This document shows, piece after piece, positions 28,271 through 33,867 of a stretch of DNA of 64,000 bases. The first letter of the stretch is position 1; each line of letters starts with the position of its first letter. The translations under genes and the position numbers were made by a program. Below the pieces are notes generated by a model. That model was not told the origin of the DNA, searched no databases, and was given only the letters and a program-made list of their open reading frames with translations. Source of the DNA: Mesorhizobium sp. AR02 (GTDB lineage: Bacteria; Pseudomonadota; Alphaproteobacteria; Rhizobiales; Rhizobiaceae); the NCBI RefSeq assembly GCF_024746835.1, contig NZ_CP080531.1, positions 6,034,001-6,098,000 of the forward strand, written 5' to 3'.

Positions 28271-29413
28271 TCAGCTGTCACGGAGCTTGACCAGATCGTT
28301 CAGCAGTCCGCTCGTTCCGTTGTGGACGGTCAGCCGCTCGACCTTGCCGGCGATGGTTTCCAGAGCCTCGAGCTCCTTCAGCCGCAGCATCACCGGGTTC
28401 TCCGCCATCACCCTGGCCGTGTTGAGCAGGGAACGCGTGGCGTTCGTCTCCTCGCGGCGGCGGATGACATTGGCCTCGGCCTGCTTTTCGGCCGACACCA
28501 CTTGGTTGAGGATCTCGCGCATCTCGCCCGGCAGGATGACATCCTTGAGCGTGATGTCGCTGACCTCCACCCCGATCTCGGCCATGTCGGCGCGGACCTT
28601 GGCCGCGGCTTCCTCATCGACCGTCACCTTCTTCTCAAGGATCTGGTCGAGCGTCAGCCCGCCAAGCGTCTTGCGGAAGGCATATTGCAGGGCACGGTAG
28701 AGGGCCTCGGAGAAGTCCTTCACAGCGCTCACCGCCTTGACCGCGTCGACGACCCGGTATTCGGCGGCAATGTTGACGCGGATCGTTACGCGATCCTTGG
28801 TCAGCACTTCCTGCCCGGCGACGTCGAGCGACTGGCGCTTGAGGTCGACGACCTTGACCTGCACCATGCGGCCGACGCTCCAGAAGGCGTGCACGCCCGC
28901 CGTGAGCGTCCGCACAAGGACACCATCGACGAACAGCAGCCCGGCCTGACCATCGACGACCGGATGGACGGACATCAACTCCGCCTTCCGGGCCTGGCCG
29001 AGACGGCGCATGACCGCGGGATCGATGGCGAGGTCGGCCGACGTGTCGACCATCGTCACCTTCCACGGACCGGCATCCGTCCACAGCACCAGCTTGCGGT
29101 CCGGCGCCAGCACGGCATGCAGGTTTCCGTCACGCTCGATGATGGCGACATCCGTGCGCCCGGTGCGAACGACGGTGAGATGACGCGCGGCCACATCCGG
29201 GATCTTGTCGAACAACGCCTTCTCGTATGCCGAAACGAATTCCGGGTTCTTCAGATCGTGCCGGGATACTTCCAGGCTTCCGCGCCGGTTGGCGAGCGAG
29301 TGCTCGCCCGGCAGCAGGACAGCCTTGATCTCCCCCTTGTAAAGGGTGAGGGCACGTTCGTTTTCCCTAACGAGGACGCGCTCGCGTCCAAGAACCTTGT
29401 CGAGAACAGTCAT
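28271..29413 (-). CDS. Slipin/stomatin (SPFH/Band 7) family protein
   Basis: Protein of 380 residues. I start at the ATG at 29413, which follows AGGAG; the longer frame adds seven residues. The SPFH domain covers roughly residues 130-310: VDGVLVRTLTAGVHAFWSVGRMVQVKVVDLKRQSLDVAGQEVLTKDRVTIRVNIAAEYRV, then a coiled-coil-prone segment EILNQVVSAEKQAEANVIRRREETNATRSLLNTARVM. Unusually, no N-terminal membrane hairpin is visible; the first 120 residues look soluble. Upstream on the same strand are two tRNA-like genes and a possible sigma-54 promoter, an arrangement seen with slipin genes of RNA-repair loci. Confidence 0.85.
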   Translation of the reverse strand: MTVLDKVLGRERVLVRENERALTLYKGEIKAVLLPGEHSLANRRGSLEVSRHDLKNPEFVSAYEKALFDKIPDVAARHLTVVRTGRTDVAIIERDGNLHAVLAPDRKLVLWTDAGPWKVTMVDTSADLAIDPAVMRRLGQARKAELMSVHPVVDGQAGLLFVDGVLVRTLTAGVHAFWSVGRMVQVKVVDLKRQSLDVAGQEVLTKDRVTIRVNIAAEYRVVDAVKAVSAVKDFSEALYRALQYAFRKTLGGLTLDQILEKKVTVDEEAAAKVRADMAEIGVEVSDITLKDVILPGEMREILNQVVSAEKQAEANVIRRREETNATRSLLNTARVMAENPVMLRLKELEALETIAGKVERLTVHNGTSGLLNDLVKLRDS

Positions 29414-29768
29414 TGTCTTACTCCTGTCGGGCATGGCCCCATGCGAGGCGTCAACTCATGCGTCGATCTTCCCTTCGTTTCTCGTTTCGTCATGGTCCGG
29501 GCACGAATGATCCGGGGACCGGTGGCATCAATCCGTGGCGGGCCTTCGGGAGCGGATCGCGGGGCAGTGAAGCGGGCGCCGGAAGCCGTGGCCTCCCTTG
29601 CCGGCGACACTGCGCCTTGATCATCACCGCGGGCCTGGCCGCGAACCGATGGCGTCGGACCTTTCGAAACGAACTCGGCCCGAAGGCTTCGGCCATCCGT
29701 CAGGTCTTCAGCATTCCATTCCCCGGACCGTTTTCAGATAACACCTGGCAGGGTGCTGGCTTATCAGG
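29414..29768. other. 355-nt spacer between tRNA-Asn-like gene and slipin
   Basis: No convincing protein: short open frames on both strands are proline/arginine-rich and lack ribosome sites. One imperfect hairpin (GGCC-CGAAG-GCTTCG-GCC, 29676-29693) is present. The stretch could be the 5' leader of slipin mRNA if tRNAs and slipin are one transcript. Confidence 0.5.
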
Positions 29769-29843
29769 CCAATGGAGAAGGAATCGAACCTTCGACAGTC
29801 AGATTAACAATCTGATGCTCTAACCAAACTGAGCTATCCGTGG
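29769..29843 (-). tRNA. tRNA-Asn(GTT)-like gene with imperfect acceptor stem
   Basis: Read on the minus strand: D arm GCTC/GAGC, anticodon stem TCAGA/TCTGA with loop TTGTTAA (anticodon GTT at 29806-29808), and T arm GAAGG-TTCGAAT-CCTTC. The 7-bp acceptor stem (29837-29843 with 29770-29776) has two mismatches, C-T and C-A. CCA is not encoded; the 3' end reads GCCT. Its first three bases coincide with the CCA of the upstream tRNA-Pro-like gene. It could be a tRNA-like regulatory or decoy RNA rather than a translating tRNA. Confidence 0.65.
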
Positions 29844-29914
29844 TGCAGAAGGCAGGATTCGAACCTGCGACCTCCGGACCCAAATCCGGCGCTCTCCCCC
29901 TGAGCTACATCCGC
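29841..29914 (-). tRNA. tRNA-Pro(TGG)-like gene with abnormal anticodon loop
   Basis: Read on the minus strand, 74 nt including encoded ACCA. D arm GCTC-AGGGGGA-GAGC and T arm GCAGG-TTCGAAT-CCTGC are sound. The acceptor stem GCGGATG/CTTCTGC has one T-T mismatch and one G-T pair. The anticodon arm CCGGA-TTTGGG-TCCGG closes a 6-nt loop (or 8 nt if the last A-T pair opens), not 7; the TGG triplet still reads as Pro. The aberrant loop suggests either a pseudogene or a specialised tRNA-like RNA. Confidence 0.6.
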
Positions 29915-30103
29915 GATCCCAATCCCCAAAGCGGCGCCGTATACAGGGCGGCAAGGCCGCCTGCACGGGCGGAGACGAAAGCTCCAACCGTTGTGCTCAC
30001 TTCGGTTCTCGTGACCGGGAGCGCGCCTATAGCCCCTGCGACGGGTTGTCGCAAGCGGCATTGTCGCGGCGAATTTGCGGCTTCTTTCGGCGGTGGCATT
30101 TCG

Positions 30104-30118
30104 GCAACACTGCGTCCA
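30104..30118 (-). promoter_or_regulatory. Candidate sigma-54 promoter upstream of the tRNA-like pair
   Basis: The minus strand reads TGGACGCAGTGTTGC, keeping the essential TGG and TTGC with the exact GG-N10-GC spacing of sigma-54 promoters, though the -24 box departs from consensus after TGG. It lies about 190 nt upstream of the tRNA-Pro-like gene and just past the phosphatase stop. The other notable item in the 229-nt gap 29915-30143 is the inverted repeat TGCGAC-GGGTT-GTCGCA (30037-30053). Confidence 0.35.
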
Positions 30119-30791: not shown

Positions 30792-33700
30792 TCATTTTTT
30801 GGCAAGCTGCTGTTTCACCAGATCGATCTTCTGGTCAGTGAGGGGGATGGGGATAGTGTAGCCGGCTTCGGTGAAACCCAGCTTGGCGTTCTCGAAGAAC
30901 TCGATGGCTTTCAGATATTCCGGCTTGCCGCCGCCATAGCTGGCGCGGTTCCAGTGGATGTCGCCAAGATTGTTCTGTTCGAAGGCCCACTGCATGGGCT
31001 GGTTTTCCCTGGTGAACACTTTCAGCGTCGCGGTGAAAGCAGCCTCCGCCTCGTCGAGATATTTGCCGGTCCGTTCGATGTTGCCGAGGTTGAGCAGGCT
31101 CATGCCGATGCCGTTCTGGGCGTTGGCCCAGTCGACCGGTGCCGTCTCGATGGTCAGCACTTCCAGTGCCGCCCGACGGGCTGCGATCGAATCCCGCAGG
31201 GTTTTGGGATCGGCATTGCTCATACTCAACCAGTGCAGCGTCGAGCCGAGACCTGCCTGGGCCAGCGCCCATTGCCGCGGATTTGTCTCGCGCTTGTACT
31301 CGCGCAGCGCATTGCCGTAGGCGTCGACCGCCTCGCTGTAGTGCTCGGGCTTGTCCGTCACACCGCCAAGCAACTGCAGCGTGTTGCCGAGATTGTAGTA
31401 GCTCATGGCCCAATCCTGCGGGAATTTTCGCCTGACATAGACCTGCCGGGCTGCCTGGAAGGCTGCTGCCGACTGCTCCAGCTTTGTCGCGTCACGAGTG
31501 CGCTGGCCAAGCGTCTGGTAGATCGAGCCGAGATTGTTCTGCGCCGACGCCCAATCCATCGGGAAGCGCTGCCGGGTAAACACCGTCAGCGCGTCGTCAT
31601 AGGCCGCGGCGGCCTCTTCGAGCGTGGTTGTGCCCATGTCGAAACGAGCAACGCCACTCAGCGCGTTGCCGAGGTTGAGCCGGCTGGTCGCCCAGGAGAC
31701 CGGGAAGGTCTCGCGGGTTCGTACCTTCAGCGCGGCGCGGAAGGCATCGGCCGCCTCGTTGATCTTGGTCTTGTCGTTGAGCTGGATGCCAAGCGTCACC
31801 AGCGTGTTGCCGAGATTGTTCTCGACCATTGCCCATTCCACGGGGGCTTTCTCGCGCGTGTATTCCTCGAGCGCCAGCCGGTAGGCGGCTTCCGCGTCCT
31901 TCAGATGCTCGCCGGCGGGTTCACGCTCGGAGAGCGCGTAGAGCGCCAGGCCGAGATTGTTCTGCGAAGCGGCCCAGTCGAGCGGCAGCTTGTCGCGCGG
32001 GCGCTTTTCCAAGGTGGCGCGCATCGCCGCCACGGCTTCATTGAGGCGCTTCGGATCGCTCTCGCGTTCGCCGATCTTCAACAGCACATTGGCGAGGTTA
32101 TTCTGCGCGGCCGCCCAGTTGGGGTCGTCCTTCTCGCGCTCGAAGACGACGAGCGAATCGCGGAAGATCTGCGCTGCTTCTTCGAGATGCGTGGTTTCGG
32201 TCTCGCGCTCGCCGATGGTCTGCAGCACAACCGCCATGTTGTTGCGGGTGATTGCCCAGTCACTGTTCTGCTCGCCATCGGGAATGAAATTCAGGATGAC
32301 GTGATAGGCCTCGATTGCATGCCGCAACGCATCGAGATCGCCGGTGGCGTAACCGTAAGAGTTGAGTGCCTCGGCTTCCTGGTTCTTGTAATTCCAGCGC
32401 AGCTTGTCGTCCCATTTCTCGACCAGCGAGAAGGCCTTGGCATAGTCGTTGGCGGCGGATTTGTAGTCGAAGACCAGTGCGGCGGCGTCGGCGCGTTTGG
32501 CATAGATGGCAGCGTCGGCGACGCGTTTCTGCCTGACCAGTTCCTCGGCCTCGTCGACCGCACCGCTGTTCTGCTCGACCCTGCCGACCGCGTCATCGAG
32601 GAATTTGCGCGCCGTCACCATGGCGCCCTGGCCGATGGCCTTGTCTGCGGAGGCGACCAGCCGCTTGATCTCCGGATCGTCGGTGCGCAGTGCGGCTCGC
32701 TCGGACATCATCTTCTTCAGGCGCTCGGCCTGGGCGTCGAGCACCTTCTGCAGGTCGGTCGGATCTTCGGGGATCTTGTCCGTGCCGAGGGCCCTCAGCA
32801 CGCCATAAAGCGCGTCGAGCGGCACGCCGTCCTGCAGTGAGGCCAGTTCCACCTGCGCCCGCTTCGGGTCGGGCAGGTCGGAAATGGTCAAGAGCAGCTG
32901 CCGCCTTTCACCGGTGATCAGCCCGTCATCGCCGGTCGGTTCCGGTGGCACGACGCCGAAATAGAGCAGACGGCGCAGGCTTTCGTTGACCCAAGGGCGC
33001 TGCTTTGCCTTGGTGTCGAGATAGACTTCCTCGGTCACCATGCGCATGACCGAGCCAAATTCCGTGCCTTTCATCGCCGCGAGATGGCGCAGCAGCGCGG
33101 CCGCATAGGGGCTGTTTTCGCCGGCCGCACCGTCCAGCGCCGGGCGGCCCGGCTCGGCGGCGAAGCCGACCACGGTGCCCAGGCTTTCGTCCGCCGCCGG
33201 TGTGTTGCCGAGCGCCTTGGCGCCACGCACCGGCTCCAGTCCGCCAGTGCCAATCGGCTCGGCGGAGGCGGTCGGCGCGCGCCGGACCACCGCGTCTGAC
33301 GGAAACGGATTGGTGCGGCAGGCATCGAGCAGCACGATCGTCACCGGCACGGTCTTCTTCAACGCATCCATGACGGCGGAAATCGGCACCAGCGCATTGT
33401 CTGCGTCTTTCAGAGACGAGACGTCGGCATCGACCGGAACCAGATAATTCTCGCCACCGGCTTCGATGCCGTGGCCGGAGTAATAGATGAAGGCGACGTC
33501 GGCCCCCTCTGCATCCTCGACGAAGCGTTCGAGGTCGCGCTTCAGCTTGGCGGCATCGCGGTCGGTGACGTTGCGGGCGTCGAAGCCGAGGTCGGTCAGC
33601 ATCTTGGCCATGTCGCGGGCGTCGTTGGCCGGGTTGGGCAGGGCGGCGATGTGCAGGTAATTCGACTGGCCGATGATCAGCGCCACGCCCTTGAGGCTTT

Positions 33701-33812
33701 TCGTCTCGGCAGACGCAAACGCCGTCGCGGCAAGACAAAACAGTGCGGCGACGAAAGCCGTCAGCCACATCCGCGCAAAAAGATTGCGTCCTGAGGTTTC
33801 GACAAAGGTCAT
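30792..33812 (-). CDS. Secreted caspase-like (peptidase C14) protein with long TPR array
   Basis: Protein of about 1006 residues from the ATG at 33812. A signal peptide (about 15-35) precedes a caspase p20-like domain with catalytic His114 in FIYYSGHGIEAGGENYLVP and Cys165 in IVLLDACRTNPFP. A linker and helical region (about 290-440) follow, then about ten degenerate TPR units of 50-60 residues, each containing a W-A-x-x-x-N-N-L-G core such as DWAASQNNLGLAL. The arrangement suggests an extracytoplasmic orthocaspase whose repeats recruit targets. The ribosome site is weak and the start is uncertain. Confidence 0.85.
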   Translation of the reverse strand: MTFVETSGRNLFARMWLTAFVAALFCLAATAFASAETKSLKGVALIIGQSNYLHIAALPNPANDARDMAKMLTDLGFDARNVTDRDAAKLKRDLERFVEDAEGADVAFIYYSGHGIEAGGENYLVPVDADVSSLKDADNALVPISAVMDALKKTVPVTIVLLDACRTNPFPSDAVVRRAPTASAEPIGTGGLEPVRGAKALGNTPAADESLGTVVGFAAEPGRPALDGAAGENSPYAAALLRHLAAMKGTEFGSVMRMVTEEVYLDTKAKQRPWVNESLRRLLYFGVVPPEPTGDDGLITGERRQLLLTISDLPDPKRAQVELASLQDGVPLDALYGVLRALGTDKIPEDPTDLQKVLDAQAERLKKMMSERAALRTDDPEIKRLVASADKAIGQGAMVTARKFLDDAVGRVEQNSGAVDEAEELVRQKRVADAAIYAKRADAAALVFDYKSAANDYAKAFSLVEKWDDKLRWNYKNQEAEALNSYGYATGDLDALRHAIEAYHVILNFIPDGEQNSDWAITRNNMAVVLQTIGERETETTHLEEAAQIFRDSLVVFEREKDDPNWAAAQNNLANVLLKIGERESDPKRLNEAVAAMRATLEKRPRDKLPLDWAASQNNLGLALYALSEREPAGEHLKDAEAAYRLALEEYTREKAPVEWAMVENNLGNTLVTLGIQLNDKTKINEAADAFRAALKVRTRETFPVSWATSRLNLGNALSGVARFDMGTTTLEEAAAAYDDALTVFTRQRFPMDWASAQNNLGSIYQTLGQRTRDATKLEQSAAAFQAARQVYVRRKFPQDWAMSYYNLGNTLQLLGGVTDKPEHYSEAVDAYGNALREYKRETNPRQWALAQAGLGSTLHWLSMSNADPKTLRDSIAARRAALEVLTIETAPVDWANAQNGIGMSLLNLGNIERTGKYLDEAEAAFTATLKVFTRENQPMQWAFEQNNLGDIHWNRASYGGGKPEYLKAIEFFENAKLGFTEAGYTIPIPLTDQKIDLVKQQLAKK

Positions 33813-33867
33813 TTGTCGTTCGTGTCCGCCCTGATACTCCAAGCCCTCTATAACGCTGCCAGTCTAC

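Follow-up and report, generated by a model that had tools for sequence, protein, structure and literature searches.

Tandem tRNA mimics with a swapping anticodon loop upstream of slipin genes in Mesorhizobium: candidate decoys for anticodon nucleases

The stretch of DNA analysed here (the window) comprises 64,000 nucleotides (nt) of Mesorhizobium sp. AR02 (contig NZ_CP080531.1, positions 6,034,001 to 6,098,000), whose genome consists of 8.9 Mb in four contigs, and contains a slipin gene of the SPFH/Band 7 family that is preceded by two transfer RNA (tRNA)-like genes. Reading along the minus strand, the order of elements is a sigma70-like promoter, a transcript leader, tRNA-like 1, tRNA-like 2, a structured stretch, a two-codon open reading frame (ORF) and slipin (Table 1). 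A preliminary description of this locus had reported two tRNA-like genes with three bases in common and a slipin gene, and this arrangement was confirmed by ARAGORN, Rfam and Pfam analyses. ARAGORN called a tRNA-Asn(GTT) and a tRNA with the anticodon 'tg', both on the minus strand, and the overlap at positions 29841-29843 means that the CCA of tRNA-like 1 constitutes the first bases of tRNA-like 2. Both genes exceeded the gathering score of 29 for the Rfam tRNA model, and no other known RNA family in Rfam reached its gathering score; YrlA (RF02553) was rejected as an identity, its score of 29.2 bits being below the gathering score of 69. The abnormal features claimed in the preliminary description were also found to be real, with tRNA-like 1 having a 6-nt anticodon loop and one non-standard acceptor pair and tRNA-like 2 having a 7-nt anticodon loop, two non-standard acceptor pairs and a 3' end without CCA. 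Forty-five of 46 other tRNA loci examined in the same genome yielded a CCA-ending tRNA, the exception (L214) being a partial copy, and further Asn(GTT) and Pro(TGG, CGG and GGG) tRNA genes are present elsewhere in this genome. At loci L174, L191, L193 and L195, the minimum-energy fold gave a cloverleaf for at least one or both of the tRNA-likes. Hairpin-like stretches similar to that at 29757-29771 come after tRNA-like 2 in several relatives.

The association between the tRNA-like pair and slipin was examined by scanning for a T-arm pattern in the 700 nt upstream of full-length slipin genes in four locus sets comprising 123 loci. At least one upstream T-arm was detected in 122 of these loci (79/79, 19/20, 19/19 and 5/5 by set) and a tandem pair in 108 (76, 11, 18 and 3 by set), compared to 4 and 0, respectively, of 790 control windows, which were drawn only from downstream of slipin at the nearest named-genome loci. 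As two genome collections can hold one species twice, the 123 loci are not 123 independent cases; L109 and L113 have an identical mini-ORF region. Loci with too little upstream sequence (L082, L121 and L182) and repeats (L111, L175, L177, L179 and L181) were excluded from this set. Three loci with one T-arm by the pattern scan (L089, L091 and L097) yet had two Rfam tRNA matches. When the 80 nearest slipin loci of the named-genome collection were scanned with ARAGORN, at least one upstream tRNA was called in all except L082, where the contig ends, and L106, and many of these calls carried unassignable anticodons. With the Rfam tRNA model, one or more upstream tRNAs were detected in 33 of 35 selected loci (15/15 and 18/20 by set), with L198 and L199 falling below the cut-off. 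Conservation of tRNA-like genes upstream of orthologous slipin genes, as detected by both the T-arm scan and Rfam, favoured the preliminary description. The tRNA pair as a chance neighbour of slipin was rejected, the T-arm scan being far above the control windows.

A similar tie was observed within the genus. Slipin was present in 70 of 119 Mesorhizobium genomes, and the RNA, as defined by a DNA match with an E value of ≤1e-40, was found in all 70 of these and in 1 of the 49 others (G588), in which the contig stops just past the RNA. Contigs break just after tRNA-like 2 in two genomes (L216 in G588:C171, and L217 and L218 in G646), which may reflect an inserted repeated element or a chance of assembly. 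In four Mesorhizobium genomes (G610, G641, G643 and G673), the slipin frame contains a stop or is split in two, with the RNA still present.

The anticodon loop of tRNA-like 2 was found to be exchanged on a constant tRNA body, with 19 different loops present in 55 Mesorhizobium loci. On a slipin gene tree, from which L058, L061 and L079 were left out due to a frame problem, the three anticodon positions required 18, 17 and 7 parsimony steps and all 10 anticodon-stem sites required 0 steps. Comparison with 100 four-fold sites of slipin detected a mean of 4.39 steps, and only 1 of these 100 sites reached 17. For pairs of loci with ≤6% slipin divergence, 106 of 156 differed in the loop, at a mean of 3.35 of the 7 bases, with a body divergence of 4.75%. 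A 7-nt loop was present in 110 of 119 loops having a stem of at least 4 pairs, although some loops were misparsed where the anticodon arm is missing (e.g., L171, L172 and L176). These 110 loops had Y32 in 108 cases, U33 in 91 and R37 in 106, and displayed 24 anticodons, of which GTT (26), CAT (25) and TAG (13) were the commonest. Forty-three of the 110 were identical to one of 43 loops taken from the tRNAs of the window's genome. The proposal in the preliminary description that these RNAs are bait for anticodon nucleases gained support from this swapping of anticodon loops.

The region between tRNA-like 2 and slipin had 60 predicted pairs that were common to 22 Rhizobiales sequences, 33 of which exhibited compensatory double changes. 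In a 53-pair core, 94.3% of cells were paired, compared to 82.3% in shuffled alignments and 28 to 48% in slid versions, and similar differences were detected for the number of pairs with double changes (31 versus 19.6 in shuffles) and for the covariation score (0.406 versus 0.184). None of 500 shuffles reached the observed pairing, double-change or covariation values. Just before slipin, a Shine-Dalgarno sequence followed by a start codon, a single sense codon and a stop codon was present in 87 of 106 alphaproteobacterial loci, compared to 1.7 loci expected from mononucleotide shuffles. This count was obtained with the Shine-Dalgarno sequence widened to AGG?GA because a strict AGGA missed the window; the stricter pattern was detected in 57 of the 106 loci, the window itself not being among them, and in 0 of 19 non-alphaproteobacterial loci. 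The start (ATG, GTG or TTG) and stop (TGA or TAG) codons vary with the layout being kept, and the sense codon also varies (ACG, ACT, AGT, CCT and others, with Thr, Ser, Pro and Arg codons among them). Two-codon ORFs of such a minimal kind could report on translation or on peptidyl-tRNA release.

Upstream of the tRNA-like pair, a TTGC-N18-22-CTATA pattern was present in 57 of 58 Mesorhizobium loci, as was CTATA with a CGCGC discriminator (57/58), and a sigma70-like promoter was predicted on the basis of this pattern. Outside Mesorhizobium, the pattern matched only some alphaproteobacterial loci. Most columns of the leader exhibited ≥90% identity across the 58 Mesorhizobium loci, and a predicted fold for 13 deduplicated leaders had 29 pairs, 15 of which were represented by at least two Watson-Crick types. 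The preliminary description had instead assigned a sigma54-like promoter to a TGG-N8-TTGC sequence. This sequence is present at 30104-30118, but the same leader pattern was found in only 2 of the 58 Mesorhizobium loci, and a sigma54 promoter at this site was rejected in comparison with the 57 of 58 for the sigma70-like promoter.

Table 1. Features of the slipin locus, with positions in the window
Feature	Position	Strand	Evidence or remark
TGG-N8-TTGC sequence, outside the conserved unit	30104..30118	-	in 2/58 Mesorhizobium loci
Sigma70-like promoter, TTGCGA...CTATAG (predicted)	30027..30054	-	pattern in relatives; promoter role inferred from sequence
GC-rich discriminator directly after the sigma70-like promoter	30015-30026	-	
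Transcript leader, promoter to tRNA-like 1	29915..30026	-	column conservation and predicted fold
tRNA-like 1	29841..29914	-	ARAGORN; Rfam tRNA, 61.8 bits
tRNA-like 1, 6-nt anticodon loop TTTGGG	29879-29884	-	
tRNA-like 1, encoded CCA	29841-29843	-	
tRNA-like 2	29767..29843	-	ARAGORN tRNA-Asn(GTT); Rfam tRNA, 59.0 bits
tRNA-like 2, 7-nt anticodon loop TTGTTAA (GTT)	29804-29810	-	
Hairpin TGGC-CTGATAA-GCCA after tRNA-like 2, overlapping its 3' end	29757..29771	-	
Structured RNA domain	29509..29729	-	covariation; long-range closing helix of 14 bp (29716-29729 paired to 29509-29522)
Shine-Dalgarno sequence of the mini-ORF, AAGGGAAG	29468-29475	-	
Two-codon mini-ORF, ATG AGT TGA	29451..29459	-	pattern in alphaproteobacterial loci
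Slipin (SPFH/Band 7), proposed start 29413; listed ORF start 29434	28271..29413	-	Pfam Band_7

The slipin matched Pfam Band_7 with an E value of 2.3e-30 in an open frame of 28271-29434, and a Shine-Dalgarno sequence (AGGAG) at 29421-29425 suggested that the start is more likely to be 29413 than 29434. The nearest named slipins were 97% identical and came from Mesorhizobium. An AlphaFold model was obtained with a mean predicted local distance difference test (pLDDT) value of 82.0 and a predicted template modelling (pTM) score of 0.58, for which the best solved match in Foldseek was human stomatin (9oh9; E value, 2.8e-13). In this model, approximately 150 residues ahead of the SPFH domain are predicted to form a beta-rich region. 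Foldseek also matched human vault cage chains to the model (9mxv_A; E value, 3.3e-9); vaults, too, are SPFH-like cages and contain small RNAs. A phage origin was rejected, as slipin had no match in the phage collection.

The preliminary description had linked the slipin family to RNA-repair loci, and this was borne out by the neighbours of slipin outside the Alphaproteobacteria. Twenty such loci were analysed, with 14 from a search of the phylum, in which the slipin profile found 23 of 398 genomes (E value of ≤1e-40), and 6 from plasmid records (one from Bacillota); two loci were from E. coli. RtcB was directly downstream of slipin in 15 of the 20 loci and upstream in 1, RlaP adjoined slipin in 5 (3 of these being without RtcB), and one or other of these genes was beside slipin in 19. 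A divergent RtcR was present in 9 of the 20 loci. L190 was without RtcB, RlaP or RtcR within its 1.5-kb flank. The RtcB, RlaP and RtcR family assignments at these loci were checked by Pfam on examples. RtcB-linked loci had the same slipin profile and tandem T-arms as the window's locus. Scanning of 22 other loci detected a TGGCAC-type sigma54 site ahead of the mimics in 7, of which 6 had a divergent RtcR; L174, L192 and L195 were RtcR loci without this pattern. Co-occurrence at the level of genomes was compared by Fisher tests that ignored relatedness: RtcR (over the cut-off) was found in 26 of 398 genomes and in 9 of 23 slipin genomes (2.3e-6), RtcB in 38 of 199 genomes of the order and in 12 of 22 slipin genomes (7.5e-5), and RlaP in 20 of 199 genomes of the order and in 8 of 22 slipin genomes (3.3e-4).

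None of these three genes was found within the flanks (4 kb or 1.5 kb) of any alphaproteobacterial slipin locus of the set. In the window's genome, the RtcB profile (PF01139) had 0 matches, with the same profile being positive in 9 of 14 control genomes, and the RtcR profile (PF06956) also had 0 matches, with an E. coli control being positive. A complete rtc locus elsewhere in this genome was therefore rejected. The preliminary description had suggested a minimal or split repair version; RtcB and RtcR were not found genome-wide, so the locus is an RtcB/RtcR-less variant rather than a functional rtc locus. The RNA-repair link of this locus holds by descent: the locus is an RtcB/RtcR-less relative of a slipin RNA-repair module in which the constant companion of slipin is a tRNA-mimicking RNA. 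One RlaP gene was detected in this genome (G000:C2:2994396-2995046; L219, 5834-6646, plus strand), approximately 3 Mb off and unlinked to the slipin locus; it adjoins a DUF480 gene and an AraC-type regulator. The genome also has 14 PIN-domain matches (VapC fold). In the E. coli version, a T-arm RNA precedes slipin and RlaP, and 1617 of 5426 genomes gave a match covering 80% or more of the query. The E. coli slipin-RlaP pairs (L220 and L221) lie between yjbD and lysC, next to phage tail genes in one strain and a zeta-toxin-family gene in another, and this position may be an exchange site. In the window itself, a 1016-amino-acid open frame at 30792-33842 (minus strand) reads, from its translation only, like a caspase-type peptidase followed by repeats.

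The known systems closest to this locus are the rtc loci of E. coli (rtcBA), Salmonella (rsr-yrlBA-rtcBA) and P. aeruginosa. A slipin of the same family and an upstream tRNA-like RNA occur beside RtcB, RlaP and RtcR in other Proteobacteria, and the SPFH protein PaFlo8 sits inside the P. aeruginosa rtc locus according to PMC13086221. The window's locus differs from RtcR/sigma54-controlled rtc loci in that no RtcB or RtcR was found in the genome and the predicted promoter is sigma70-like. YrlA, a Salmonella Y RNA with a tRNA-like domain, is likewise a tRNA-mimicking RNA beside RNA-repair genes, and its authors suggested in PMC7790460 that the tRNA-like domain may competitively inhibit an anticodon nuclease. 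YrlA differs from the RNA described here, as the window's locus has two tandem cloverleaves, real and changing anticodon loops and an adjacent slipin. Stomatin and slipin SPFH proteins have the Band_7 domain and the best solved fold in common with the window slipin, which differs in its predicted extra N-terminal region and in being tied to an RNA. In the TrcR regulon of Anabaena, a single repressor that is relieved by translation stress controls a tRNA array, rtcB and a gene of the slipin family, such that slipin and RtcB are derepressed together with a silent tRNA operon; the available sections of PMC10272220 neither show adjacency of these genes nor mention a tRNA mimic upstream of slipin. 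Stomatin and band 7 are not mentioned in the available part of PMC4012209. No paper on a tRNA-like RNA upstream of slipin genes was found in the open-licence PMC literature, and the likeliest review lies outside that scope. Published work already describes a tRNA-like RNA at RNA-repair loci (PMC7790460) and SPFH genes located within rtc loci (PMC13086221). Tandem tRNA mimics that are tied to slipin and have swapping anticodons were not found in the open-licence literature.

The combination of frozen stems with a replaced, well-formed anticodon loop is best fitted by decoys for anticodon nucleases, and we tentatively prefer the reading that the tRNA mimics act in this manner within one RNA with slipin. 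A single RNA from the sigma70-like promoter would comprise the two mimics, the folded domain, the two-codon ORF and slipin. The mimics would keep the D arm, T arm and stems that tRNA-binding enzymes grip, with the displayed anticodon loop being exchanged between lineages, and anticodon nucleases (rival toxins, nucleases induced by phage or endogenous VapC-type toxins) would be spent on a dispensable RNA. Slipin, as a membrane ring protein, would be a co-expressed partner, perhaps serving to anchor either the RNA or the response to the membrane. The module of many Beta- and Gammaproteobacteria is placed under RtcR and linked to RtcB and RlaP, and the resealing and rebuilding of cut tRNAs would fall to these two enzymes. 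The proposal for the tRNA-like domain of YrlA (PMC7790460) is a published precedent for the decoy idea. With greater reserve, we suggest the possibility of a widespread RNA-decoy family, consisting of tandem mimics tied to slipin and often to RtcB, RlaP or RtcR, whose loops would be under diversifying selection from anticodon nucleases, with each lineage displaying the bait that its current attackers cut.

Several observations weigh against a decoy function. The minimum-energy fold of the isolated window pair is not two cloverleaves, and the loops of tRNA-like 1 are short across loci, with 57 of 86 having 6 nt and 15 of 86 having 5 nt. U33 is missing from 19 of the 110 seven-nt loops of tRNA-like 2. 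The loop type changes 26 times on the tree, compared to a mean of 34.1 and a minimum of 29 for shuffled labels, indicating that loops are inherited for a while, though often replaced. Other unpaired sites are also fast, with up to 17 steps in the D loop and 15 in the T loop, and hence a high mutation rate together with weak constraint could be a shared cause. Tetraloop-like caps replace the anticodon loop in Burkholderia L173 (5676-5740) and L198, GAAA is present in tRNA-like 1 of L104, and only the T-arm is left in the version of E. coli and Citrobacter, so a role as anticodon bait cannot apply to all lineages. The tetraloop-capped mimics (L173, L198 and L104) would represent a decoy that is not cuttable at the anticodon.

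The position of the RNA in the leader, the folded domain and the mini-ORF also fit a cis sensor of the same damage, which is a close rival to the decoy reading and is compatible with it. Cleavage or failed processing of the mimics would refold the 53-pair domain and, via the two-codon ORF, turn on slipin translation, with the loop setting which nuclease is reported. In accord with this proposal, the RNA directly precedes slipin, its strong folding includes a long-range helix, and at its end lies a conserved minimal ORF that is served by a separate Shine-Dalgarno sequence; the codons of this ORF vary, with the layout being retained. We nevertheless consider a sensor to be rather doubtful: the mini-ORF is missing from 19 of the 106 alphaproteobacterial loci as well as from all of the non-alphaproteobacterial ones and hence is not general, many other loci already have RtcR as a sensor and the switch itself is a proposal. 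An unlikely explanation is that the RNA is a scaffold or ligand, in which slipin (or RtcB or RtcR) would bind the elbow and T-arm and an exposed, unconstrained anticodon loop would mutate fast. The T-arm is indeed the most constant element across lineages, being kept where the anticodon arm was lost (E. coli and Citrobacter), and the rapid change of D-loop and T-loop sites is in keeping with this explanation. Free drift, however, is not expected to have preserved a loop of 7 nt in 110 of 119 cases, in which Y32 and R37 are almost invariant and flank ordinary anticodons, or to have made two anticodon positions faster than 99 of 100 four-fold sites.

Use of the tRNA-likes as odd but working tRNAs in translation, for example under stress, is very improbable. 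Both score well against the tRNA model and the predicted promoter resembles that of a stable RNA, but close relatives carry different anticodons on the same body (19 loops among 55 loci), tRNA-like 1 has a shortened loop, the CCA bases are common to both genes, tRNA-like 2 has no CCA of its own and the genome is otherwise provided with Asn(GTT) and Pro tRNA genes. The idea that decayed tRNA genes lie beside slipin by chance is strongly disfavoured and has the lowest probability of all. Such relics could account for the odd loops, the missing CCA and the degenerate arms of several lineages but not for a conserved promoter, unchanged stems, compensatory pairs downstream and the presence of the RNA in all 70 slipin genomes of the genus.

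These results bear on the questions of what slipin does in RNA-repair operons and how cells buy time during tRNA cutting. As tRNA finders report these RNAs as ordinary or unassignable tRNAs, the tRNA counts and 'anticodon' inventories of many genomes include them. The E. coli version makes the system testable in a standard laboratory species. If the decoy reading is true, these loci would represent a new layer of defence, with a decoy acting before repair and the RNA changing only the part that toxins cut. There would then be an RNA-level arms race at the anticodon, and a genome would reveal which anticodons have been under attack.

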